A stretch of 64,000 nt of DNA, taken from NCBI GenBank assembly GCA_021650895.1, contig CP091278.1, positions 1,641,659 to 1,705,658 of the forward strand. Direction: 5' to 3'. The notes beneath the pieces were generated by a model, which had not been told where the DNA came from, searched no databases, and was given only the letters and a program-made list of their open reading frames with translations. Both the position numbers and the translations under genes were made by a program. Origin of the DNA: Candidatus Jettenia sp. (GTDB lineage Bacteria > Planctomycetota > Brocadiia > Brocadiales > Brocadiaceae). Below, piece after piece: positions 6,968 through 20,031 of the stretch (position 1 is its first letter; each line of letters begins with the position of its first letter).

Positions 6968-7753
6968 TTACTTTCTACATGCCGTAAGATAGGAATCACT
7001 ATAAACGTGTTGATTCATAATAATCTCTGCTGTTATTGCAGCATCCATTAAATCCTTATCAAGTACATCCATGACAGCAGCGTCCAGTCCGTATGAGATT
7101 CCCATGGTTAAAAATATACGGGCTAAAAGCCTTTTTTCCTTTGTTCCCTGAGAGAAGTTACTGAGCCCTACATTTCGGTGTGGCGGCGGATCAGAGATCA
7201 TTTTGATCTGGTTGAAGATGTCAAACATGAGTGCAGGCTGTTTCTGATCGACATTAATAGGGAAAAGTACGGGGTCTATGTATACCTTTGATAGTTCATA
7301 CTCATGCTCTACCGCCTTTTCCACAATCTTCATAGCAATCTCCATACGCCGTTCAACATCCTGGGGAATACCACATTTATCCATCGTAAGACATATCAGC
7401 GATGCATTGTATTCCTTAGCCAAAGGCATGTATTTATCTAATTCTTCAGGATCACCCTTTGAGGAATTGATTAAGACCTCATTTTTAATCACCGATAAAC
7501 CGGCCTTTACGATATCGAATTTTTGACTGTCGATCGCAATGGGTGTCTTTACTGTATCCTGAATAACCTCAATTAACCATTTCATCGCTCCAGCCGGATC
7601 TGCCGTAGCAGTACCCACATTCACGTCCAGAAAACTAGCCCCGGCCTCTGTCTGCTTTATCGCAAGTTCTTGCACAGCCTTTGGGTCCTTATTTTTTATA
7701 GCTTCACGTACATCTTTAAACATACCGTTGATACGTTCCCCTATAGAAATCAT
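6968..7753 (-). CDS. acsE: Methyltetrahydrofolate:corrinoid/iron-sulfur protein methyltransferase (AcsE)
   Basis: Transfers the methyl group of methyl-tetrahydrofolate to the cobalt of the corrinoid iron-sulfur protein, linking the methyl and carbonyl branches of the Wood-Ljungdahl pathway. The 261-residue TIM-barrel protein matches AcsE length and shows the pterin-binding landmarks IGERING (4-10), DVNVGTA near residue 44, INSSKGD, and GLSNFSQG near the C-terminus. AAAGGG stands about ten bases before the ATG. It is the last gene of the acs run, followed by a terminator-like hairpin. Confidence 0.95.
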   Translation of the reverse strand: MISIGERINGMFKDVREAIKNKDPKAVQELAIKQTEAGASFLDVNVGTATADPAGAMKWLIEVIQDTVKTPIAIDSQKFDIVKAGLSVIKNEVLINSSKGDPEELDKYMPLAKEYNASLICLTMDKCGIPQDVERRMEIAMKIVEKAVEHEYELSKVYIDPVLFPINVDQKQPALMFDIFNQIKMISDPPPHRNVGLSNFSQGTKEKRLLARIFLTMGISYGLDAAVMDVLDKDLMDAAITAEIIMNQHVYSDSYLTACRK

Positions 7754-7907: not shown

Positions 7908-8867
7908 TTAGTATAAACGATCAATACATTTTTTTACTGCTGCAACAGCTCTGGGATGATTCATACGAATGATATCAACACCAGATTGCAAAAGGCTGGT
8001 GGCAGTAATGGTTTCCCACATCGGACCTCTTTCTTCCCGCGGTCCCCACTGGGGAACATCGTTATCGTTAGATTTAGCCTCTTTTGATCGCCATGCCTCA
8101 TGACCAACATCGCAGATTACCGGCATAGACATCATTTTATCGCCCGTAAGAGCAGCCAATCGCTCACGTTCCTGAATAGAATAGGTATACTCCAAACCGT
8201 AGCCTAGAGCGCCAGTTGATTGGAACATTACTATTCGGTTGAGTGGAAAATCCATCTCAGACACGAGAATATTAATCTGTTTTCCAATGTTAATATCCAC
8301 AGGCGCCATGGTAATAATACTGTGTCCATCTGCCAGGCATGTAGCTGTAAGTGTCTTATAGTTATCCTGTGATACAATGCCTAATAGACAGTTTTCTCCC
8401 CTGGCAGCCTGGCTCACTTTAGGCATTACCTCGTTATCTTTCTCATCATGCTCACACCCCCAAATAATGAGAGGAACACCTACTGCAGCAAGGATCGATT
8501 TTACCGTTTTTACCGCATCTTCTGCACTTTTATCACCTTTGTCAGGATGGACTCCATCAAGCTTAAGACAGATCAGATCAGCCCCATATTGCTCTACACA
8601 TTTTTTTGCCCATTGTGCCGGATCGTTGATGACATCGGCAAAAGGCTTGGTTAAGGTCTCAGCCCAGTCATCAGGCGGTGTATCATACACATCCATAGCA
8701 ATTACCGGCTTATGGCCAGGATTCCCCTCAAAATCCATAAAAGGAATACATTTTGAGCCACCAACGGTGATCGTCTTTTGTCGGCTACCTCCTTTATCCT
8801 TTGTAGCACCAATAGTAATCTCATTGACACCACTTGTCCACTTGTCCGCTACATTTGGTATTTCCAT
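7908..8867 (-). CDS. acsD: Corrinoid iron-sulfur protein small subunit (CODH/ACS delta, AcsD)
   Basis: Small subunit of the corrinoid iron-sulfur protein; with AcsC it carries the methyl group from AcsE to acetyl-CoA synthase. The 319-residue TIM-barrel product begins with the family pattern of a repeated TIG/TVGG-like segment and PFMDFEGNPGHKPVIAM, and contains DLICLKLDGVHPD, IIWGCEHDEKD and SQDNYKTL, all typical of CdhD/AcsD. The second ATG is chosen because AGGAG lies seven bases upstream; the first ATG is one codon earlier. It lies between the cooC and acsE genes in the acs order. Confidence 0.95.
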   Translation of the reverse strand: MEIPNVADKWTSGVNEITIGATKDKGGSRQKTITVGGSKCIPFMDFEGNPGHKPVIAMDVYDTPPDDWAETLTKPFADVINDPAQWAKKCVEQYGADLICLKLDGVHPDKGDKSAEDAVKTVKSILAAVGVPLIIWGCEHDEKDNEVMPKVSQAARGENCLLGIVSQDNYKTLTATCLADGHSIITMAPVDINIGKQINILVSEMDFPLNRIVMFQSTGALGYGLEYTYSIQERERLAALTGDKMMSMPVICDVGHEAWRSKEAKSNDNDVPQWGPREERGPMWETITATSLLQSGVDIIRMNHPRAVAAVKKCIDRLY

Positions 8868-8993
8868 CATTTATCTCCTACTATCTATCAAAAACGTAAC
8901 TACAGAGTACACAGAGGAAAAACTTTAATAACCTTTGAAACCCAATCCTCAGTAAAATTTTGAAATTTAAGCATGGAACAATATTAAACAATA

Positions 8994-9785
8994 TTATATG
9001 AGATCAGACACCGTCTTCTGAAGCATACTCGCCGGCAGGTGTTTTTGTAAAAACTCACCCAGTTTTCGGTATAATTCATTTTCACGGGAAATCTCAAATA
9101 TGGGTGCCCCACACGCTGCAGTATCATACACCTCCTGATCGAACGGGAATATCGCAGATATCTCAATCCCCAAACTATCTAACTTCTGCTGAAGATTCTC
9201 ATGAATGCCATTTTTCGGTACCCGGTTCAATACACAGAACTTTTGTCTAATCGTAATTGGAAGCGAATCGGCTAATTTAAGGATCCGCTGCATGGTCAAT
9301 GCACCAACAATCGTTGGCTCACTTACAATCATCAGGAAATCTACATTATTCGTAGTCCTGCGGGAGAGATGCTCCATACCAGCTTCATTATCTGTCACAA
9401 TAAAAGGATAGGTTGTTCCTACTTTATCAAGATATTTCCGCAAAAGATTGTTCACATAACAATAACACTTCGGACCTTCGGGCCTACCCATGGTCAAGAG
9501 ATCGAATTTGTCCTTTTCAACAATAGATTCCTCAATAGCATACTCAATGTATCTATCCTTGGACATTCCCGAAAAATCAACCTTCTTTTCTACAATATCC
9601 TCACGGAGATCAGCAACGGTACTCTGTACATGCAATCCGAGCAACGAACCTAGTGAGGCGTTAGGATCAGCATCGACAGCAGATACAGGCTTACCAATCT
9701 CCTCAGTAATATATCGAATAATAAGAGCAGAAAGGGTTGATTTTCCCGTTCCGCCTTTCCCAGCGACTGCAATATTAAACGCCAT
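8994..9785 (-). CDS. cooC: CooC-type nickel-insertion ATPase
   Basis: MinD/NifH-like P-loop ATPase that helps load nickel into CO dehydrogenase or acetyl-CoA synthase. Residues 8-17 form the deviant Walker A AGKGGTGKST, DADPN follows, and the CYC pair in PKCYCYVNN is the metal-binding CXC of CooC proteins that sits at the dimer interface. MIVSEPT is the usual Walker-B-side motif. The ATG at 9785 has GAGG seven bases upstream; an upstream TTG would add two residues only. Two cooC genes flank this cluster, so one may serve CODH and the other ACS, as proposed for CooC/AcsF. That division is an inference. Confidence 0.93.
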   Translation of the reverse strand: MAFNIAVAGKGGTGKSTLSALIIRYITEEIGKPVSAVDADPNASLGSLLGLHVQSTVADLREDIVEKKVDFSGMSKDRYIEYAIEESIVEKDKFDLLTMGRPEGPKCYCYVNNLLRKYLDKVGTTYPFIVTDNEAGMEHLSRRTTNNVDFLMIVSEPTIVGALTMQRILKLADSLPITIRQKFCVLNRVPKNGIHENLQQKLDSLGIEISAIFPFDQEVYDTAACGAPIFEISRENELYRKLGEFLQKHLPASMLQKTVSDLI

Positions 9786-9880
9786 ACACAAACCTCATAA
9801 GCATTATCTAAAATCTATTTATCAAGTTTTTCACTTTCACCCAACTCCACGTTCTCTACAACTTCTGCGGTGAATACTTG

Positions 9881-11809
9881 TTACTGAATTTTCAATTCCT
9901 CTGCTACTGATGGAAATTTTTCGATATCGGTATGAGGTAAAAAGTTTGCCGATATATATTCTTCCATATATTTATTGTTATTCATAAGATCGAAATACGT
10001 CATCTTTGATGCAATCGCCCTCGATACTTCATAAGCATCTTTGGAGAAGAGAGACATTTTAGCACCAATTACAGAGGTATTTCCAACAAACTGAACTTTC
10101 GAAATAGAGATATCAGGCAGCATTCCAATGGTGATTGCACTTCGTACATCCAAATAGTTACCAAACCCCCCGGCAAGGTATAGCTGCTCGATATTGTTTA
10201 TATCCATACCCATAGATTCAATTAATGTGGAAATCGCCGAATAGATAGCAGCCTTAGATCGTATAAGATTTTGAATATCGGCTTGTGTAATGACTATATC
10301 CTTTTTTGTGGCAGTTTCGCTTTTATCTACCAGGATAAACTCATATCCATTATCTGTTTTTCTTAACCGGTCTGTATCTATTCCTTTCTGGAAATTTCCT
10401 GTCCTGTCAATAACACCACTTCTTACAAGAGTGGCCAAACAATCCAGCAATCCTGAGCCGCATATCCCACTCGGAGGAGTATCACCAATTGTCTTGTAAT
10501 TAACGTCAAAATTCTTTGTTATGTTTATCTTTTCTATAGCGCCTTTCGCTGCCCGCATGCCACATGAAATACCACTACCCTCAAAGGAAGGCCCCGCCGA
10601 CGCTGAACAGCATACCATCCAATCTTTATTACCCAGTACAATTTCGCCATTGGTACCTATATCAATAAGGAGTGACAATGCCTCAGCCTTATCTAACCGT
10701 ATAGCAAGAACACCGGATGTAATATCACCACCCACATATGCCCCAACACAGGGCAGTGTATACAGCAAACCCTGATTATTAGTTTTTATACCTACTTCAG
10801 CAGCCCGGAGAGGAGGTATAAAACTGACGGACGGAAGATATGGTTCTTTTCTGATATTCGTAGGGTCTAAACCTACCAGGAAGTGAGTCATTACCGTATT
10901 TCCAGCACAAACAACAGCACCGATATCATGAATACTTAACTTATTCCTTTTAACAAGTGTGGATATCAGATGATTTATATCTTCTATGAGAACCTCTTGC
11001 ATAATGTCCATTGCATCATGCTGCTCAGCATGGATAATTCTCTGGATGTAGTCATCTCCATACTTGATTTGAGAATTATAGGTAGCTTCAATATCAATAG
11101 TCTCTGCGCGACAAAGGTCCAGAAGATGAGCTACCACGGTAGTTGTACCAACGTCTACAGCAACACCGTAGTTATTTGCACTCACATCCCCCGCCTGTAC
11201 CTCAAGGACCTCAACAGAAGAGCCCCGATATCCAAGGGTAACTGTAACCTTCCATTTACTATTCCTCAAAATAGCAGGCAAATGTTTCAGGACGGTGAAA
11301 TTTGTTGTCAAATTTTCTAACGGGATATCTGTCTTAACCATAATATCCTGACAGAGTCTTTCATAATCTGCCATACTATCATCCAGGCTGGGGAGAGATA
11401 ACTCCAGATACAGCTTGCTCACCAGAGGATTTTGCTTAAATTGTTCTGCTCCCAGACTGACCGCTGCAAGTGAACCCGGGAATTGCGGATAATCACTAAC
11501 AAGAATTTGACTTTTATCAAGCCTTGATTCCTCAGGTATTAAAACCTCCAGGTCATCAACTACTTTTGTCCTACAAGCAAGGACATATCCTTGCTTTACC
11601 TCTGCTGCAGAAATATGAGTAGTTGGCATACTATCTACCTTGCCACTTTTCAGGATTACCTTACATTTACCGCAGGTGCCATCACCACCACAGAGGGCAT
11701 TGATAAACAAATCGCCCTTGTAGGATGCATCAAGAATGGTTTTCCCTTCTTCAATATCAACCGTAACTTCACTGGGAAGAAAATTTATTTTATAATGTGA
11801 ATTTTTCAA
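9881..11809 (-). CDS. Reductive activator of the corrinoid iron-sulfur protein (RACo/RamA-like, DUF4445)
   Basis: Uses ATP to drive reduction of inactive Co(II) back to Co(I) in the corrinoid protein. The 642-residue protein has an N-terminal plant-type [2Fe-2S] domain with Cys40, Cys46, Cys49 and Cys79, a linker, and a C-terminal ASKHA ATPase part containing VDVGTTTVVAHLLDL, LLIDIGTNGEIVLG, SASAGPSFEGSGISCGM and AGGFGNYLD. These are hallmarks of the RACo family. The start is a TTG without a good Shine-Dalgarno sequence, so the exact N-terminus is uncertain by a few residues, although the ferredoxin domain requires a start near here. It sits between acsC and cooC, as in acetogen acs clusters. 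Confidence 0.93.
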   Translation of the reverse strand: MKNSHYKINFLPSEVTVDIEEGKTILDASYKGDLFINALCGGDGTCGKCKVILKSGKVDSMPTTHISAAEVKQGYVLACRTKVVDDLEVLIPEESRLDKSQILVSDYPQFPGSLAAVSLGAEQFKQNPLVSKLYLELSLPSLDDSMADYERLCQDIMVKTDIPLENLTTNFTVLKHLPAILRNSKWKVTVTLGYRGSSVEVLEVQAGDVSANNYGVAVDVGTTTVVAHLLDLCRAETIDIEATYNSQIKYGDDYIQRIIHAEQHDAMDIMQEVLIEDINHLISTLVKRNKLSIHDIGAVVCAGNTVMTHFLVGLDPTNIRKEPYLPSVSFIPPLRAAEVGIKTNNQGLLYTLPCVGAYVGGDITSGVLAIRLDKAEALSLLIDIGTNGEIVLGNKDWMVCCSASAGPSFEGSGISCGMRAAKGAIEKINITKNFDVNYKTIGDTPPSGICGSGLLDCLATLVRSGVIDRTGNFQKGIDTDRLRKTDNGYEFILVDKSETATKKDIVITQADIQNLIRSKAAIYSAISTLIESMGMDINNIEQLYLAGGFGNYLDVRSAITIGMLPDISISKVQFVGNTSVIGAKMSLFSKDAYEVSRAIASKMTYFDLMNNNKYMEEYISANFLPHTDIEKFPSVAEELKIQ

Positions 11810-11941: not shown

Positions 11942-13282
11942 TTAAGGCTTCCACACAGTTTTTAGATACGAGGCGAGACCCGATGCCTCCCGCGGCCCAA
12001 CCATTATCTCCCAACCGAGGGTCTCTTGCAATTTTCCAGACATCACAGCTACCAGCCCCGGAATGATAAGTTTTCTGTGCTTTACTTTCGTCTCCACCTG
12101 AGCATCTGCCATAGCCTTGGCAACAACTTTATCATTCAATTTGTCACCAGAATATGCCGTCAACACCGAGGTACCACCGGTATCTACGGATAATATGAAC
12201 GCAGGAATGCGACTTCCCTCAACCTCACCTTCGACCGTATAATAAGTAAGCGAGAAATTTGTTGTGAATAAAACCGGAGAATCTTCCTTAGCGTCCCCCA
12301 CGGCATATAATTTTGGTTCAACCTGAATGGGTTTTTGTGGATCAGTAAATATATTTGTCCTGACAGTAAGCAATGGCATAATTCCCCATGACTCACAATT
12401 ATTGACCACAACAATACCAGCGTACTTTACCAGATAGGTACTGGCCATTGAAATTTCCTGAAATGTATCATCATCACAGGCAAAGGTGATCATAGGAAAC
12501 CCAAGAGCACGGAAATTTTTCTTTAATGCAGCCCTTCTTATCCTGGTTAGTTTCTGAAGTACCTCTTTCGGTTTGTCACCGCTCACATCTAATACAATCT
12601 CTTCAACACCGGCCTTCTTTACCCGTTCAGCCAGATCAGCGAGCTCTTCAAGCGTTGGGGCAGTTACCGTCATAGGGCAATTCTTTTCCTTCGCTAGCGC
12701 CGCCATAGATTCGCAATTTCCTGCATTTGCACCGTGAATCAAAGGCCTCTTCTCAGCGCAGTTTGCCAGAGCTGCTCTCATATTATCAACAGAGGTACTG
12801 CTCAAAATAATATTCAAATGAGAGCCACTACTGATTTTCTTTGCCGCTTCAGCAAATTTTTCTGCACTATTACTCTTGTTGATAATTGCAACGAGATCAA
12901 TCTCGATCTCTGTACCAACACGGGCCATTTTTAAATTATTGATCTTCTTTAAACGATTATCAAAAGCAGCATCATCCAGATCATCATGAATAGTAACGGC
13001 TATGCCTGTAGGATGATAAAATTTTTCTTCATGCCTGAACAATACATTTTCTTCACCGGTCTCCACTTTCCTGGCACCTGTACCGACAGTTACAAGTTTA
13101 ATTGGAGGCGCAGAGGCAGCTCCCAAAACTCTCTTAGCCTCTTCACTCACATCAGGACAATCCGACAGGTTTGCCTTTTTTTGCGCCAATTGCATAGCAA
13201 ATGCCAGACATGTGGGTCTTCCACACTTTTTACAATTTGTTTTGGGAAGTAATTTGTAAATGTCTAATCCAGTTAGTGCCAT
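11942..13282 (-). CDS. acsC: Corrinoid iron-sulfur protein large subunit (CODH/ACS gamma, AcsC)
   Basis: Large subunit of the corrinoid iron-sulfur protein. Cys17, Cys20, Cys25 and Cys42 (TNCKKCGRPTC ... DCPD) bind the low-potential [4Fe-4S] cluster that reduces cobalt, followed by a TIM barrel and a C-terminal cobalamin-binding Rossmann-like region rich in GGTSVLTAY and LIIPG motifs. The length of 446 residues is normal. AGGA precedes the ATG by nine bases. It is separated from acsB by clpP on the same strand. Confidence 0.95.
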   Translation of the reverse strand: MALTGLDIYKLLPKTNCKKCGRPTCLAFAMQLAQKKANLSDCPDVSEEAKRVLGAASAPPIKLVTVGTGARKVETGEENVLFRHEEKFYHPTGIAVTIHDDLDDAAFDNRLKKINNLKMARVGTEIEIDLVAIINKSNSAEKFAEAAKKISSGSHLNIILSSTSVDNMRAALANCAEKRPLIHGANAGNCESMAALAKEKNCPMTVTAPTLEELADLAERVKKAGVEEIVLDVSGDKPKEVLQKLTRIRRAALKKNFRALGFPMITFACDDDTFQEISMASTYLVKYAGIVVVNNCESWGIMPLLTVRTNIFTDPQKPIQVEPKLYAVGDAKEDSPVLFTTNFSLTYYTVEGEVEGSRIPAFILSVDTGGTSVLTAYSGDKLNDKVVAKAMADAQVETKVKHRKLIIPGLVAVMSGKLQETLGWEIMVGPREASGLASYLKTVWKP

Positions 13283-13387
13283 TCTTTACTATCCTTTCGC
13301 ATAAATAACTATTGCCAAAACCTGACCACAGAAAAAATCTTTATCGTTTTACTATGGTCTCTGTATTCCGTCTTTCTCTTATCAAAC

Positions 13388-13436
13388 GAAAAACCACCCA
13401 TTTATCCTCTTTGAACGAAGAGGATAAAGGGTGGTT
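13388..13436 (-). terminator. Strong rho-independent terminator after clpP
   Basis: On the minus strand AACCACCC-TTTATCCTCTT pairs with AAGAGGATAAATGGGTGGTT, about 19 pairs with one bulge, and is followed by TTTTT. It lies roughly 45 bases past the clpP stop and upstream of acsC, so clpP transcripts should end here and acsC should have its own promoter. Confidence 0.85.
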
Positions 13437-13481: not shown

Positions 13482-14096
13482 TTATGCTTTTAAATCATCA
13501 CTCTTCTGTATGATTTTACTGACCAACCCATACTTGAGAGCCTCTTCTGCAGACATCCAAAAATTCCTCTTAGTATCTGTTTCTACCTTTTCCACGGATT
13601 GCCCCGTTTCTGCTGAAATTAACCGATTAATCTTTTCCCGGCATTTGAGTATTTCATTCGCTTCAATTTGAATATCAGAAGCAGTTCCATGAATACCGGT
13701 AGAAGGCTGATGAATCAGAATACGCGCGCTGGGCAAGCTAAACCGGTTTTCTTTTCTCGCTCCGAGAAGGATAATTACAGCAGCGCTAGCAACAACTCCT
13801 GTACAGATAGCGTTTATTCTTGGTTTGACAAACCGCATCATATCGTAAATTGCAAAACCAGCATCCGCATCGCCGCCGGGGGAATTGATGAACATTTTAA
13901 TATGATCATCACTTTCCGCTTCAAGAAGTAAGAGTTGCGTCATGATCTGTTGCGCCATTTTCTTACTCACCTCATCCGTTACCATAACAGTGCGAGTTTT
14001 TAATAATTTTGAAACAAAATCTCCGCCTCGCTGCTTTTCCTTTTCTTCTCCGGCATCTTCATCTTTATTTCCTAATAATGGCATAGTAAAAATCAT
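13482..14096 (-). CDS. clpP: ClpP-family serine protease with a Ser-His-Asn triad
   Basis: Proteolytic ring subunit of an ATP-dependent Clp protease, 204 residues. Ser104 in TGVVASAAV and His129 in RILIHQPS align with the catalytic Ser and His. The third triad position, in DTKRNFWMS, is Asn178 where Escherichia coli ClpP has Asp171 (DTERDRF). Listeria ClpP1 is a known ClpP with Asn there and depends on partner ClpP2 for full activity, so this one may act in a mixed ring; that is inference. GGAG lies seven bases before the chosen ATG. The gene is oddly placed inside the acs cluster, with its own terminator. Confidence 0.93.
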   Translation of the reverse strand: MIFTMPLLGNKDEDAGEEKEKQRGGDFVSKLLKTRTVMVTDEVSKKMAQQIMTQLLLLEAESDDHIKMFINSPGGDADAGFAIYDMMRFVKPRINAICTGVVASAAVIILLGARKENRFSLPSARILIHQPSTGIHGTASDIQIEANEILKCREKINRLISAETGQSVEKVETDTKRNFWMSAEEALKYGLVSKIIQKSDDLKA

Positions 14097-14199
14097 GAAT
14101 AAACTCCACAGGTAAAAACAAAAAATATTACCAGCACAACACTCAATTTATCAAGATACTATAAAGCTGGCTATCATTAATATTGTTTAAGATAAATTT

Positions 14200-16023
14200 T
14201 TAGAACATCGGCGCTAGAACTAATGCAGGGTGATTAACCTTTTGCATGTACGTCAAAACCTCTTCCTCAGTCTGTGCAACGGTCTCATCGGCTATTTTAT
14301 TGAGAAAATCTTCAAGACCCATTTCTTCTGCCGTCTTAATAAGAGTTTCTGCTAACTCTTCCTTCAAGGCTTTAGGCATCCAAACAACACGCGCAAGGCC
14401 TCCGTCCGCAGAAATAAATTTTCTGCTACCCAAATAAAACTTGCTATGCCCCATAAAACCAGGGGTTTGCAATCCACCACCAACTGTTCCAGCAAGTGTG
14501 GAGAATTTCATACCACAAGGGGTCATTTCAGCAAAATCACGATCTACCACCATGATTCCATTGGTCATAGGTAACATAGCAGAAATACATTCAAAACATC
14601 CACAACTCGTCATCGGGTCTGTCATAATGCTGTACAAACTTACCTTTTCAAGCGATCTGTTCGAACCGTTGAATATAAACGAATTGGTACCTTCCCACTG
14701 CCCCAGTCTTTCATCAACAGTTTTTCCTCTTTCTATTGGTTGGTTTGGACCGGTGGGATTAATCTCATATCCAGCCTTTCCGTCCAACCAGCTAACAGAA
14801 CCACACAAACCAGAACGTTCTGGAGTAACAACACAAATGTGAGTAGGCGCAAAACTCTGACAGAGTGTACAGCTATAAAACATGCCAACCGAATCATCGG
14901 TCATACCTTTTAACCGTGCATCGCGTTCTGTGTATGCGGCACGCACATCTTTCAGAAGTCTTTCCACATCTTCTTTTTTCGTATATAAAGTCACCTGCAC
15001 CTTATCCAGAATGGCACCAAACTCACCATGGAATTTAGCATGAATGATATTCCCTATATGCTTGATCCTAAAACCTGCTTTAAAGGCTTCTTTACTGATA
15101 CGGTGACGAATAATATCCCTCTGGCCCATATGGAATAAACCCTGAGCTTCACCGAGGAATCGATGCATTTGCCGTTCAAAAATAGGTTCAAAGTCTGGCT
15201 GCATTTTTCGACCAGACACCTCAACCATGATACCCAAAGACACACCGGGGCCAGCGGGAATCTCATCCAAATCCGGACCTATAACCTGTATCTTGCCATC
15301 CTCAACCTCATCGATTTCTTTGGTGCACACATATTCAAAAGCAGGTACGCCAGGACCGCCAATCTCAATTTGCATATCCTCTTTCCGTATGCGTTCACCC
15401 TCAAAGGCAGGGCCATACGGGACAGGGATATCCAACTTATGAATTGATATCTTTAAGCCACGTACCTCGACACATTTATCAACAATCTTATCAACAGGCA
15501 CTTTAGAAACCACATGCTCATAGGTACAAACACCGGTAGGTAATATTTCAGGAATATCGATATTGGTAATCGTTGGAAAGCCATAGTTAATCGCACCTGC
15601 AGCATTTGCATATTGTTCATCAGTAACTTTAGTGCCCAATGCAAGGACAAAAGCAAAGATACGGTTCTTATTATACAGAAGATTCCTTTTAAAATCCCCC
15701 GGCGGGACATTACCAAACGAGAGAGCTGCCCTATTGGCAAAACCTAAGGCATATACTGCAGCGGAGGTCTCTTTTCCAAAAGGCACAAGACGAGTATCCC
15801 ATCCCATTTGGACACCTTTTTCAGCTAACTGTTCGGCAAAAGATACACCAAAATTATCAGATTGTATAAACACATAGAGATTTTTTTGCTGAAGCTCTCT
15901 TGCAATCTTGACGGCTGTATCTGCATCAGGAGCACACCCTACTATAGCAGCAAACCCTGGCGCCGTACCATCCACAAATTCAATACCCCGTTCACGCATA
16001 ATAACATCATCTGCTGCCCCCAA
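14200..16023 (-). CDS. acsB: Acetyl-CoA synthase subunit (AcsB), main part downstream of a frame break
   Basis: Catalytic subunit that joins CO, the corrinoid-bound methyl group and CoA into acetyl-CoA. This frame holds the central and C-terminal domains. The A-cluster ligands are present: the spacing C-x2-C-x8-C-x9-C in CTLCQSFAPTHIC and GLCG for the [4Fe-4S] cluster, and the CGC motif in TSCGCFEC for the distal nickel. The first residues of the real protein are in another frame at 16035-16382, and the two read as one AcsB of normal size if one base is added near 16038-16046. The TTG taken as start here is artificial: homology continues upstream in this frame as PVDGIWLGAADD. Either an assembly error or a disrupted gene. 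Confidence 0.93.
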   Translation of the reverse strand: MGAADDVIMRERGIEFVDGTAPGFAAIVGCAPDADTAVKIARELQQKNLYVFIQSDNFGVSFAEQLAEKGVQMGWDTRLVPFGKETSAAVYALGFANRAALSFGNVPPGDFKRNLLYNKNRIFAFVLALGTKVTDEQYANAAGAINYGFPTITNIDIPEILPTGVCTYEHVVSKVPVDKIVDKCVEVRGLKISIHKLDIPVPYGPAFEGERIRKEDMQIEIGGPGVPAFEYVCTKEIDEVEDGKIQVIGPDLDEIPAGPGVSLGIMVEVSGRKMQPDFEPIFERQMHRFLGEAQGLFHMGQRDIIRHRISKEAFKAGFRIKHIGNIIHAKFHGEFGAILDKVQVTLYTKKEDVERLLKDVRAAYTERDARLKGMTDDSVGMFYSCTLCQSFAPTHICVVTPERSGLCGSVSWLDGKAGYEINPTGPNQPIERGKTVDERLGQWEGTNSFIFNGSNRSLEKVSLYSIMTDPMTSCGCFECISAMLPMTNGIMVVDRDFAEMTPCGMKFSTLAGTVGGGLQTPGFMGHSKFYLGSRKFISADGGLARVVWMPKALKEELAETLIKTAEEMGLEDFLNKIADETVAQTEEEVLTYMQKVNHPALVLAPMF

Positions 16024-16034
16024 CCATATCCCGT

Positions 16035-16382
16035 CTACCGGGTGGGCCCGATTAAATATTTACAGGCCTCATAGATCTCTTCTGCAAAAAGTGTTGCCAT
16101 ACCCGCATCTAAGGTGTGACCCAGGTATGGAACCCAGTGTTTTTCAGCAGGCAATGGAGGTAACATACTCCTTGCTAAACCTATCACATGTACACAATCC
16201 TCTAAGGTTTTTACCGGAATACCCGTCATGGAATAAATGATAGGCAAATAATAGGCTGTATTGGGAAATTCCACTTTACAACCAGCTCCCTTTTGTGCAA
16301 TTGCTTCAGCAAGCTTTTTATCAGCTTTATCTACAATTTGGTATGCACCGCGAATAGCGGCGGAACAGATGATTTTTGACAT
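16035..16382 (-). CDS. acsB: Acetyl-CoA synthase subunit (AcsB), N-terminal fragment
   Basis: The 115-residue frame begins MSKIICSAAIRGAYQIV and contains EFPNTAYYLPIIYSMTG and WVPYLGHTLDAGMATL, the characteristic N-terminal domain of AcsB that docks on CO dehydrogenase. It stops at KYLIGPTR because the frame is lost in ACCCGGTAG. Adding one C there gives KYLIGPTPVDGIWLG and joins the main part. The real start is well supported: AAGGGG lies eight bases before the ATG. The gene begins 27 bases after the CO dehydrogenase stop, so the two are probably co-transcribed. Confidence 0.92.
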   Translation of the reverse strand: MSKIICSAAIRGAYQIVDKADKKLAEAIAQKGAGCKVEFPNTAYYLPIIYSMTGIPVKTLEDCVHVIGLARSMLPPLPAEKHWVPYLGHTLDAGMATLFAEEIYEACKYLIGPTR

Positions 16383-16409: not shown

Positions 16410-18374
16410 TTAATGATGTCCAGGAACAGGTTTACACTCCCTTTCCAATGCTCTTCGTTCTGCCATATCATAGAGTTTTCTCTCTTTTGCCGTGTTTATA
16501 CCAAGCGCATCTCTCTTTTTCTCTATGTGATCCATCATCATCCTGCCTATCTTCTTCAGATCACGCTCGAAATCCCATCGCGCACCAACCATATCTTCCA
16601 TCTCTTTGGTTAATAACCTTTGCATATCGGGCGCACCAGCTACCGGAGAATTCATGCCAAAGACGATATAAATACCAGATGCTACAAAATACTGACCAAT
16701 AGCAATTGCCTTTTCGCTCATCCATTCCAAACATGCACCGGCAACCGGCAAATCACTAATATCGTTTCCTAAACCGCCTTCTTTTGCCATTTCAGAACAG
16801 GCTATCAAAATACGGCTATTATCGACACAGGCACCGGAATGAAGGACAGGTGGTATACCTACCGCTTCACAAACTTCCCGGAGCCCTTTACCGCATTCAT
16901 CTTTTAATTCAGGGATCATCAATCCACCGGAAGCGCATTGCCCCGCAGCACAACCCGTCGCCACTACTAATATGTTGTTGGCTATGAGTTCCCTTACCAG
17001 ATTTACGTAGTTCTGGTCACATGCGCCTGCCCTGGGGCTTGTACAACCGGCAATTCCCACAACACCGCGAATCCTTCCGTTTATGATATTATCGTTCAAA
17101 GGACGGTAACTTGCACGAAACCTGCCGCCTAACATATATTTAATTGTCTCATGGCTAAAACCAGCGATAAGGTTCGGCTCGGCACTACTCGGAATAAACA
17201 CCTTATTATTATCGCGGTTTTTATAGTTATCGATAGCCATCATAATAATCTTCTTTGCTGCTTCGAGGGCATGCTCATCGGTAAACTCTACATGTTCCGC
17301 ACCATCAATCTTTGCCTTTGATAAGGTCGTAACAAGCTTTGTATGGAAGTGCTTTGCAGTTTCAGCTAAAGCCTGCATCACACATTGTATATCAACAACC
17401 ATCAACTCCACCACACCAGTCGCTATAGCACCCTCCTGTATGGTCATATGGCCGGCCATAGGAATTCCATGCCGGACAAGAAGCTCGTTTGCAGTACAAC
17501 ACAGACCAGCAATCACAAGACCTTTTGCCCCCGTTGCATGTGCCGCTTTTATGACATCCGGATCACCCGAAGCAAGGACGATGGCTTCGGCAAGCTGAGG
17601 TTCATGCCCGTGAACAACGATATTTATATGGTCTTTTTTCATAACACCTAAGTTTGATCTTCCCTGTACAGGCTTCGGCGTACCGAACATAATATCCTGC
17701 AGTTCGGTTGCTATCATACAACCACCCCAACCATCCGCTAACGCCACGCGCATGGACTGCTTGGTAAGGTTCCGATAGTCCTGATCACCGCCCATCCCTG
17801 TTCGGTGCAAACTCTCAGTAACCTCACGGTCAATTGCTCTGGGCGCAATGCCTAATTTTTCCCATATCTTTTGACGCGCTTCCGGCGCCCTTTTAAGGAA
17901 CAACAAAGTACCATAGGGTTTTCCAAACTCCATTAATGCCATCTCGCCAACTTCTTCAGCGATTTCATTTATCTTGCGATCCTTTGTCTTCACACCAAAA
18001 CACTCAGCAACCATCATAAGTTTATCCACATCTTTAATACGGTAACCTGGTGCTTCACCCCTTGCGGTAGCAACTAAAAGGTGAGCTGCGGCACGCGCAT
18101 GGTCAGAGTGGCATGCAGTGCCAGCACCATTCATACGAAGATAATGCCGGGCCGCAAAGGTATTAGCATCAGCTCCGCAAACACCTTTCTTTGGTCCATT
18201 TCCAAAAGGATCGATATTGCATGGTCCATAGTTACAATGACGACAACACAATGCGAGGCTACCATATCCACACTGAGGAAGCTGGGCCTGGTATCTGTCA
18301 TACATGGTTTCTACTTTAATTTCTTTCATCCGATCAAGCATTACCTGATCCACTGTTTTTTGTTTTTCTTCCAT
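16410..18374 (-). CDS. acsA: Nickel-iron carbon monoxide dehydrogenase catalytic subunit (AcsA/CooS)
   Basis: Reduces CO2 to CO for acetyl-CoA synthase, or oxidises CO. The 654-residue protein has the N-terminal cysteine array for the D and B clusters (Cys35, Cys43, Cys44, Cys47, Cys52, Cys66 in CGYG, CCRHCNYGPC and GVCGADA) and the HSDHAR helix. Further on are GLCCTANELL, GIAGCTSPRAGACDQNY, ATGCAAGQCASGG and HSGACVDNSR, which supply C-cluster and proton-relay residues. The start is the ATG at 18374, because GGAGGA sits seven bases upstream inside a longer open frame. It is directly upstream of acsB, and a cooC precedes it. Confidence 0.96.
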   Translation of the reverse strand: MEEKQKTVDQVMLDRMKEIKVETMYDRYQAQLPQCGYGSLALCCRHCNYGPCNIDPFGNGPKKGVCGADANTFAARHYLRMNGAGTACHSDHARAAAHLLVATARGEAPGYRIKDVDKLMMVAECFGVKTKDRKINEIAEEVGEMALMEFGKPYGTLLFLKRAPEARQKIWEKLGIAPRAIDREVTESLHRTGMGGDQDYRNLTKQSMRVALADGWGGCMIATELQDIMFGTPKPVQGRSNLGVMKKDHINIVVHGHEPQLAEAIVLASGDPDVIKAAHATGAKGLVIAGLCCTANELLVRHGIPMAGHMTIQEGAIATGVVELMVVDIQCVMQALAETAKHFHTKLVTTLSKAKIDGAEHVEFTDEHALEAAKKIIMMAIDNYKNRDNNKVFIPSSAEPNLIAGFSHETIKYMLGGRFRASYRPLNDNIINGRIRGVVGIAGCTSPRAGACDQNYVNLVRELIANNILVVATGCAAGQCASGGLMIPELKDECGKGLREVCEAVGIPPVLHSGACVDNSRILIACSEMAKEGGLGNDISDLPVAGACLEWMSEKAIAIGQYFVASGIYIVFGMNSPVAGAPDMQRLLTKEMEDMVGARWDFERDLKKIGRMMMDHIEKKRDALGINTAKERKLYDMAERRALERECKPVPGHH

Positions 18375-18536
18375 ACAAAAATCCTCCATTATTATTTTTT
18401 ATGAATATCAGTACAACCCTAAGTTAGCTTATGCAGCTATACTGAATATTCACTCCATTTCTCTATTTCTTAATGATGAATGGAATGATACATTATAATT
18501 GTAAATGCATTATAAAATCAAGGGAAAATACAAACT

Positions 18537-19313
18537 CTAGCTGCCTTTTATACAATCTTCCAGCTTATCTTTTATTTGCTCAACTTCTGATAGCAATTGC
18601 TTATTTTCGGCGAAAGCTGCCCGCCCATCAATATCCGATTCAAGAATCCTGTCGCTATAGGAAATAAATCCCAAGACAGGCACACCGTTCAATCCTTTTT
18701 CGATCAATACTTTATGCTCTTTCGATGCCACCTTATTGCCCACTGCATAAATCGACTTAAGACCTATATCATCTGCTAATTTTTTGACTTGAAAAGCTGT
18801 TTGTATACTCTTCGAGCCAGGTTCTACTATTATAATTAAGGCATTTACTGCCCTTACCGTGGCACGACCAAGATGTTCTACTCCAGCTTCCATGTCCACA
18901 ATCACAACCTCATCCCGTTGCAAGATTAAATGACTCAGTAATGTCCTTAAGAAGGCGCTTTCCGGACACGCACAACCACCTCCGCCTCTTTTTACTGCAC
19001 CCAGTACCATGAGCTTTATACCATCTTGTTCCAGTGAAAATTTATCAGGCAAATCGGAAACAGTTGGATTTAACTGAAAGAACTTTCCGTATTCTTCAGA
19101 AGTAGCACCTGTACGCTCCTTTATCAATTCCTTCATCTGACTGATTGGTATTATTTCTGTTACATTTTTAATCCCCAGAGTTGCCGCTAAATTTGACACT
19201 GGGTCTGCATCTATTGCTATAACCCTTTTCCCACACTCTGTAAAAACCTTTGCCAATGCAGCCACGAAGGTTGTTTTTCCAACGCCTCCCTTGCCTGAGA
19301 CCGCTATTTTCAT
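18537..19313 (-). CDS. cooC: Second CooC-type nickel-insertion ATPase
   Basis: P-loop ATPase of the CooC/AcsF group, 258 residues. Walker A is SGKGGVGKTT (6-15), IDADPVSN follows, and GGGGCACPES contains the CXC metal-binding pair. VDMEAGVEHLGRATV is the conserved Walker B region of CooC. The ATG at 19313 is used; AAGGG precedes it by nine bases. It lies upstream of the CO dehydrogenase gene on the same strand and is the first gene of the cluster. It differs clearly from the other CooC at 8994-9785, so the pair is not a recent duplication. Confidence 0.93.
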   Translation of the reverse strand: MKIAVSGKGGVGKTTFVAALAKVFTECGKRVIAIDADPVSNLAATLGIKNVTEIIPISQMKELIKERTGATSEEYGKFFQLNPTVSDLPDKFSLEQDGIKLMVLGAVKRGGGGCACPESAFLRTLLSHLILQRDEVVIVDMEAGVEHLGRATVRAVNALIIIVEPGSKSIQTAFQVKKLADDIGLKSIYAVGNKVASKEHKVLIEKGLNGVPVLGFISYSDRILESDIDGRAAFAENKQLLSEVEQIKDKLEDCIKGS

Positions 19314-19504
19314 AATCAATTACCCTTTTCGTTCAAACCAATATTTTAATGAACACTATGCCAGCTATTTGTATTATGTAATCATTATTATTTACCAATA
19401 ATATTATGTATAAAGTTTAGCAAATAACTAAATAATAACCAAGAAAATTTCAAAAATAACCATTCATTATTTGATCTATTTTTCTTTTTATACACTTCCA
19501 TAAA

Positions 19505-19960
19505 TTAATTCTTTGAGAGCATTGATAAAACAGCCTTTTTACAATCCATAAGATTAGAAATGGTCAAACCAAAAATACGTTGCCCAAAATTAGGAGTCCA
19601 TGCCCTTGCGGATAATCGGCAATGCCTCTGCTTGTTTTCCTTTGGAAGAGATGGGTAAATCGCAATATCGTACCCCGATGCCTTCCGCAAAATATTCTCA
19701 TGTTCTCGATGCCAAACTTGTTCATCAATCTCCAAATCCAACCCAAACTTAATAAAATGCTCACCAAGTGGCACCTCACAATACAGCCTGTCTTCTTTCA
19801 GATCATCTCTGAACTTTATCAGAAATACCCCGTTCCAATTTCCATCAAAGGGAAAATCCTCTGATTCCAGCTTAAAATCATGCTTGGCACATGCAAAATC
19901 AAGGAGTTGATTTCGCATGGCCTCTAAATCCGATCTATCCGGCCTTCTTTTTTCTCTCAT
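19505..19960 (-). CDS. Hypothetical protein
   Basis: I do not recognise this 151-residue protein. It has no signal peptide or membrane segment and is rich in charged residues (MREKRRPDRSDLEAMRN start). The middle, WNGVFLIKFRDDLKEDRLYCEV, looks like alternating beta strands, and the C-terminal part ISNLMDCKKAVLSML an amphipathic helix, so a small soluble alpha/beta protein is likely. The start at 19960 is chosen because AGGG stands six bases before that ATG; an ATG nine codons upstream is also open, with GGAGGA lying inside it. It lies between a GGDEF protein gene and cooC. Confidence 0.6.
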   Translation of the reverse strand: MREKRRPDRSDLEAMRNQLLDFACAKHDFKLESEDFPFDGNWNGVFLIKFRDDLKEDRLYCEVPLGEHFIKFGLDLEIDEQVWHREHENILRKASGYDIAIYPSLPKENKQRHCRLSARAWTPNFGQRIFGLTISNLMDCKKAVLSMLSKN

Positions 19961-20031
19961 AACGTTCCCTATTCCTCCAAAAAACAAAAGAGAACCAATG
20001 CTTTTATTTTACCCGAATGTATTAGTTTTCT

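Follow-up and report, generated by a model that had tools for sequence, protein, structure and literature searches.

In Listeria monocytogenes, the peptidase LmClpP1 carries Asn in place of Asp172, is described as forming mostly inactive heptamers when alone, and becomes active in a heterocomplex (PMC5361862). In Pseudomonas aeruginosa, ClpP2 forms the accessory ring of a ClpP1/ClpP2 heterocomplex; its homotetradecamer is reported to be inactive, and PaClpX to act through PaClpP1 only (PMC9823225). Arg171 and Asp170 of S. aureus ClpP are described as an inter-ring salt bridge (PMC6110781), and the Pro at the triad site of Pseudomonas plecoglossicida ClpP1 is reported not to be the main cause of that protein's low activity (PMC12900304).

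Here we describe ClpPn, an accessory ClpP encoded within the CODH/ACS (acs) gene cluster of Candidatus Jettenia and its relatives in the order Brocadiales. In anammox bacteria carbon enters through CODH/ACS, an oxygen-labile enzyme. All Wood-Ljungdahl genes of Scalindua profunda are reported to be highly expressed, with CODH/ACS in a single cluster, scal02484-02491 (PMC3655542). The accessible text of a Kuenenia transcriptome study names responses of acsB and acsD, and no ClpP of the acs cluster (PMC12053348); full-text searches of mainly open-access papers for anammox or the Wood-Ljungdahl pathway together with Clp showed none that names this ClpP.

The clpPn gene and its surroundings

The window, a 64,000-nucleotide stretch of Candidatus Jettenia contig CP091278.1, comes from a genome assembled as one contig, and the acs cluster and ClpPn of that genome share 95-100% identity with those of Candidatus Jettenia ecosi. 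An initial sequence-only reading had placed clpP between acsB and acsC, and there it lies, as an intact open reading frame, all three genes being on the minus strand:

18537..19319, minus strand: cooC-like MinD-type ATPase, head of the cluster
16410..18389, minus strand: putative acsA/cooS (CO dehydrogenase)
14200..16382, minus strand: acsB (acetyl-CoA synthase), with a 1-nt frameshift that breaks the frame in this assembly; the frame is open in the genus's two other genomes
14125..14154, minus strand: promoter-like site 5' of clpP (TTGATA, 18 nt, TAATAT, with TG), a consensus match only
13482..14096, minus strand: accessory clpP paralogue (ClpPn), 204 aa; S104/H129/N178, and K176-R177-N178 where S. 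aureus has D170-R171-D172
13392..13436, minus strand: intrinsic terminator hairpin 3' of clpP, U-rich tail at ~13383-13391
11942..13282, minus strand: acsC (corrinoid iron-sulfur protein, CdhD-type), the next gene after clpP
9881..11809, minus strand: acsV/RACo-type corrinoid-protein activator
8994..9791, minus strand: second cooC-like ATPase
7908..8870, minus strand: acsD (CdhD family)
6968..7753, minus strand: acsE-type methyltransferase (Pterin_bind)

Promoter-like sites number 44 in the region against a shuffle mean of 37.4, barely above chance. The acsB frame breaks within 16020-16050 (minus strand), where a C run differs from that of L005 by one base; in the other two genomes of the genus the frame is open (736 and 743 aa). 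We rejected a true breakage of acsB, since the 1-nt C-run difference is unique to this genome within the genus and clpC is similarly broken, being split near 1672-1770 of L080 (G000:C1:2917000-2922000) into frames of 271 and 589 aa. The acsB split is likely a sequencing or assembly error, and the split clpC a probable second indel error. Upstream of the cluster, at 19505-19987 (minus strand), lies a gene for a 160-aa protein with no Pfam match, which stands near acs only in several loci of the family.

ClpPn matches Pfam CLP_protease (PF00574, S14) at 233.7 bits (cut-off 20.2). Against the housekeeping profile NCBIfam TIGR00493 it scores 203.5 bits, below the curated cut-off of 308.6, which the housekeeping ClpP of the same genome also slightly misses (302.8 bits). 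Its score of 257.9 bits against PRK12553 (NF009205) exceeds the curated cut-off of 228, a match that does not discriminate because the housekeeping copy scores 263.8; against PRK14512 (NF011089) ClpPn reaches 237.2 bits, under the curated cut-off of 251, and the housekeeping copy 167.8. Pairwise dN/dS of 0.163 (against L005), 0.051 (L006) and 0.042 (L007) shows that the gene is under purifying selection.

Active-site residues, phylogeny and predicted structure

In alignment with S. aureus ClpP, S104, H129 and N178 of the window protein occupy positions 98, 123 and 172, so that ClpPn has Ser-His-Asn where a Ser-His-Asp triad would be expected. The substitution of Asn178 for the triad Asp had been proposed from the window and is borne out. 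We rejected a different Asp as the third triad member: in the alignment, read with its invariant and nearly invariant columns, D174 falls on the conserved non-triad Asp four residues before the acid. The Ser-His-Asn arrangement is no bar to membership of the ClpP superfamily, as other Asn members are known.

The same residues recur in every acs-linked protein compared. Over 43 rows (the window, L005-L043, L062, L069 and L115; L044 was left out because its contig ends before the triad acid), S. aureus positions 98, 123 and 170-172 read Ser and His followed by K-R-N (36) or R-R-N (7). Ser and His are thus invariant, and all 43 have Lys or Arg two residues before the Asn, at the site of the S. 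aureus salt-bridge residue Asp170. Among the ClpP docking-pocket positions, that of S. aureus Y61 is Lys or Arg and position 93 is Ala, Thr or Ser in 43/43, and the hydrophobic pocket is partly retained in ClpPn at positions 83, 91, 115 and 190. The N-terminal axial-loop motif of S. aureus ClpP and two housekeeping ClpPs is absent from the ten P2 proteins compared.

A tree of 64 rows, computed with columns 170-172 omitted, splits a P2 clade (ClpPn, LmClpP1, PaClpP2 and others) from housekeeping ClpP at 100/99. Within the tree, 18 Brocadiales rows form a clade at 99/96; the acs-linked group including outgroup L115 stands at only 65/25, the weak point of a single origin of acs linkage. Asn is found in 9/9 unlinked Brocadiia homologues, with Thr, Arg, Ala, His or Lys at position 170; the other P2 rows (n=30) have Asn in 7 (5 D-R-N, 2 E-R-N) and Asp in 23, and parsimony gives three changes at residue 172. 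Since all nine unlinked homologues in the class share it, the Asn is older than acs linkage, and we rejected the idea that it is an adaptation to the acs setting. Conservation of the Asn in relatives, raised as a point to check, thus holds for the acs-linked proteins without marking that setting.

The best PDB sequence matches of ClpPn are LmClpP1 (4jcq/4ryf, 195.9 bits) and PaClpP2 (178.6), with S. aureus ClpP at 171.9 or below. Its AlphaFold model (pLDDT 87.1, 32-row alignment), with residues 1-20 disordered and a short C-terminal helix, has as best fold matches the LmClpP1 chains of the Listeria ClpP1/2 heterocomplex (4ryf); third comes chain T of 9ndj, in which the P. aeruginosa ClpP1/ClpP2 heterocomplex is bound to ClpX. 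Tree, profile and predicted fold all group ClpPn with the accessory subunits Listeria ClpP1 and Pseudomonas ClpP2, and the comparison with Listeria ClpP1, first drawn from the Asn, extends to phylogeny. Like LmClpP1 (4jcq, 4ryf, mutant 4jcr), it has Ser-His-Asn, lacks the chaperone-binding motif at the N terminus, belongs to the P2 clade and is accompanied in the cell by a housekeeping ClpP; Listeria ClpP1, however, keeps Asp at position 170 (D-R-N), whereas ClpPn has K/R-R-N and sits in a carbon-fixation operon. With P. aeruginosa ClpP2 (7m1l, 9ndj) it shares a locus apart from the housekeeping clpP as well as the clade, although the triad acid there is Asp (E-R-D in the alignment).

Clp partners in the genome

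A second clpP and the ATPase genes clpX or clpA had been named as partners to look for, and the second clpP, clpX and clpC are present. The housekeeping copy encodes Ser-His-Asp and adjoins tig, and we accordingly rejected ClpPn as the genome's sole ClpP. There is also one each of what we take, from sequence features, to be ClpX-, ClpC-, ClpB- and HslU-like ATPases. Housekeeping clpP accompanies ClpPn in 50 of 57 genomes and was not found in the other seven; tig is missing from six of these as well and lies at a contig end in the seventh, so an assembly gap is the likely cause.

Gene order within and beyond the order

ClpPn matches were found in 57 of the 62 genomes of the order (best E-value 1.7e-65 or better), acsC in 57 and acsB in 56. 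ClpPn is followed by a same-strand acsC no more than 1 kb away in 56/57 genomes, and has acsB within 1 kb upstream in 54/57. The exceptions are a genome with the ClpPn gene itself cut by a contig end (G054), two with acsB on another contig (G019 and G050), and one with no acsB match and ClpPn near the contig start (G051). None of clpPn, acsB and acsC was found in the remaining five of the 62 (G012, G034, G037, G046 and G047), of which G046 is rated 95% complete. Two genomes, G035 (C2, C3) and G044 (C20, C58), have two acsB copies each, only one of which adjoins the ClpPn match.

Named contigs, which overlap the genome set and are not independent of it, gave 67 distinct loci, 42 of them with acs genes (L005-L044, L062, L069). 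Among these, 40 have acsB upstream and 41 have acsC downstream; in L017, L041 and L044 a contig end accounts for the missing neighbour. The order acsB-clpP-acsC is found in contigs of Brocadia, Kuenenia, Scalindua, Loosdrechtia and Jettenia. One contig titled Neomarinimicrobiota (L042) bears a Scalindua-like acs cluster with clpP; the record is probably mislabelled or misbinned.

A search of the class covered 75 genomes, 13 outside the order, and found acsB in nine of the 13. One, G338, from another family in another order of the class, has acsB-clpP-acsC in the same order, with a ClpP 58% identical. In family f6, acsB runs directly into acsC without clpP in 8/8 genomes examined; six of these have a full-length P2-type ClpP at another locus, G347 has a fragment only, and G340 yielded no ClpP other than the housekeeping type. 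The P2-type, ClpPn-like protein is also present in two genomes with no acsB match (G336 and G339). Because G338 has the arrangement and f6 does not, acs linkage is, as judged by gene order, older than the order and not universal in the class. The order examined in relatives of the window is thus kept throughout its own order and in one sister lineage. At three of the seven unlinked loci examined, a PpiC/SurA-like gene comes before clpP, which may be the older neighbourhood of the ClpPn-type gene:

L124, 7253-8347: PpiC/SurA-like gene preceding unlinked ClpP
L127, 3675-4742: PpiC/SurA-like gene preceding unlinked ClpP
L129, 4203-5240: PpiC/SurA-like gene preceding unlinked ClpP

The clpP-acsC gap and its terminator

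The hairpin behind clpP (13436-13392, minus strand), missed by a generic terminator scan, folds at -27.8 kcal/mol (z -6.56, 0/200 shuffles equally good). Terminator-like hairpins of -14 kcal/mol or better occur in the clpP-acsC gap of 19/23 loci of the window's family, compared with 5/22 acsB-clpP gaps, 1/19 acsC-acsV gaps and none in five other gaps of the same family (n=22, 22, 20, 17 and 16). Most genomes of other families have 2-75 nt between clpP and acsC. The gap is 2-3 nt in L028, L029, L031, L032 and L036, most Scalindua-like loci have about 30-60 nt there, and no such hairpin was found in either set. The strong terminator attributed to clpP is therefore real, though a property of the window's family. 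There it would divide the CODH/ACS genes into separate transcription units; the ancestral cluster was probably one operon, divided later in this one family. In Scalindua rubra (L043, 8568-9242) a 152-codon frame stands between clpP and acsC, presumably encoding a protein of the four-helix-bundle (23S-intervening) type.

Discussion

ClpPn is an accessory ClpP that most likely works in a mixed ring with the housekeeping ClpP. Our data show its paralogy, clade, residues, synteny, purifying selection and the presence of partners; from these we infer mixed-ring assembly, ATPase docking side, co-expression and substrate. A ring of ClpPn alone would have little or no activity, since Asn stands at the triad acid and Lys or Arg at the inter-ring Asp. 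Stacked on a housekeeping (Ser-His-Asp) ring, it would be set into the active form. As ClpPn has no axial-loop motif and its docking pocket is altered, ClpX or ClpC would dock on the housekeeping ring and feed substrates into the mixed chamber; given the hydrophobic pocket positions retained, direct docking of an ATPase on ClpPn may also occur. With clpPn inside the CODH/ACS operon, the mixed protease would be made in step with CODH/ACS, and its likeliest use would be quality control of the abundant, oxygen-sensitive Ni-Fe and corrinoid proteins. To this reading as a whole, an accessory ring fed via the housekeeping ClpP, made with CODH/ACS and probably serving quality control, we give an even chance of being right.

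It is gene order that suggests the tie to CODH/ACS: a near-universal, fixed place in the acs cluster suggests a protease tied to the oxygen-sensitive enzyme. Turnover of oxygen-damaged metalloenzymes, put forward in the initial reading, is a possible task. The main rival, a real possibility that we nevertheless doubt, is a general-purpose accessory ClpP in a strong operon, whose mixed protease would carry out general stress or growth-phase proteolysis while the acs operon merely supplies strong, steady expression. Unlinked homologues with the same residues occur in class members with and without acs; the PpiC/SurA-like folding-factor gene ahead of some of them indicates a general proteostasis setting; and the conserved terminator of the window's family separates clpP from acsC. 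However, five family groups and one outgroup family from beyond the order keep the gene in its place between acsB and acsC, and in the five genomes of the order that have no clpPn, acsB and acsC are missing too, a coincidence that incomplete assembly could explain.

That ClpPn might instead be self-sufficient, an active homotetradecamer fed by ClpX or ClpC in which Asn is tolerated, seems improbable. Ser, His and the overall predicted fold are intact, several pocket positions are still hydrophobic, seven genomes show ClpPn only, and an odd third triad residue is reported to be tolerable (PMC12900304), but the Lys or Arg at the inter-ring Asp site, the missing axial-loop motif and nearest solved relatives that are heterocomplex subunits all speak for a mixed assembly. 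Still more improbable is a ClpPn that works without proteolysis, for instance as a scaffold for ACS assembly or as a chaperone of that enzyme. The operon position and reduced triad might suggest such a role, but the invariant Ser and His of all 43 acs-linked proteins speak against it. The plain insertion first considered for this gene, or an assembly artefact, to which its odd location and two frameshifts elsewhere in the assembly might point, is effectively ruled out by the conserved acsB-clpP-acsC order in the named genera and in 54-56 of 57 genomes.

The accessory-ring reading admits a stricter form, a pathway-dedicated Clp in which ClpPn and the housekeeping ClpP would select damaged, unmetallated or mis-stoichiometric CODH/ACS subunits; we put this forward tentatively, as rather unlikely. 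Azotobacter vinelandii ClpX2 is said to control the levels of nitrogenase maturation proteins, and resembles this reading in joining a Clp component to metalloenzyme biosynthesis, although ClpX2 is an ATPase rather than a ClpP and the metalloenzyme concerned is nitrogenase.

A ClpP fixed in the acs operon across an order would be unusual among compartmental proteases, few of which are linked to a single pathway by gene order. The loss of Asp170 and the change of Asp172 to Asn provide a natural series in which to test what compels mixed ClpP rings to pair. If the pathway-dedicated form were true, protein quality control would be genetically wired into the Wood-Ljungdahl pathway.
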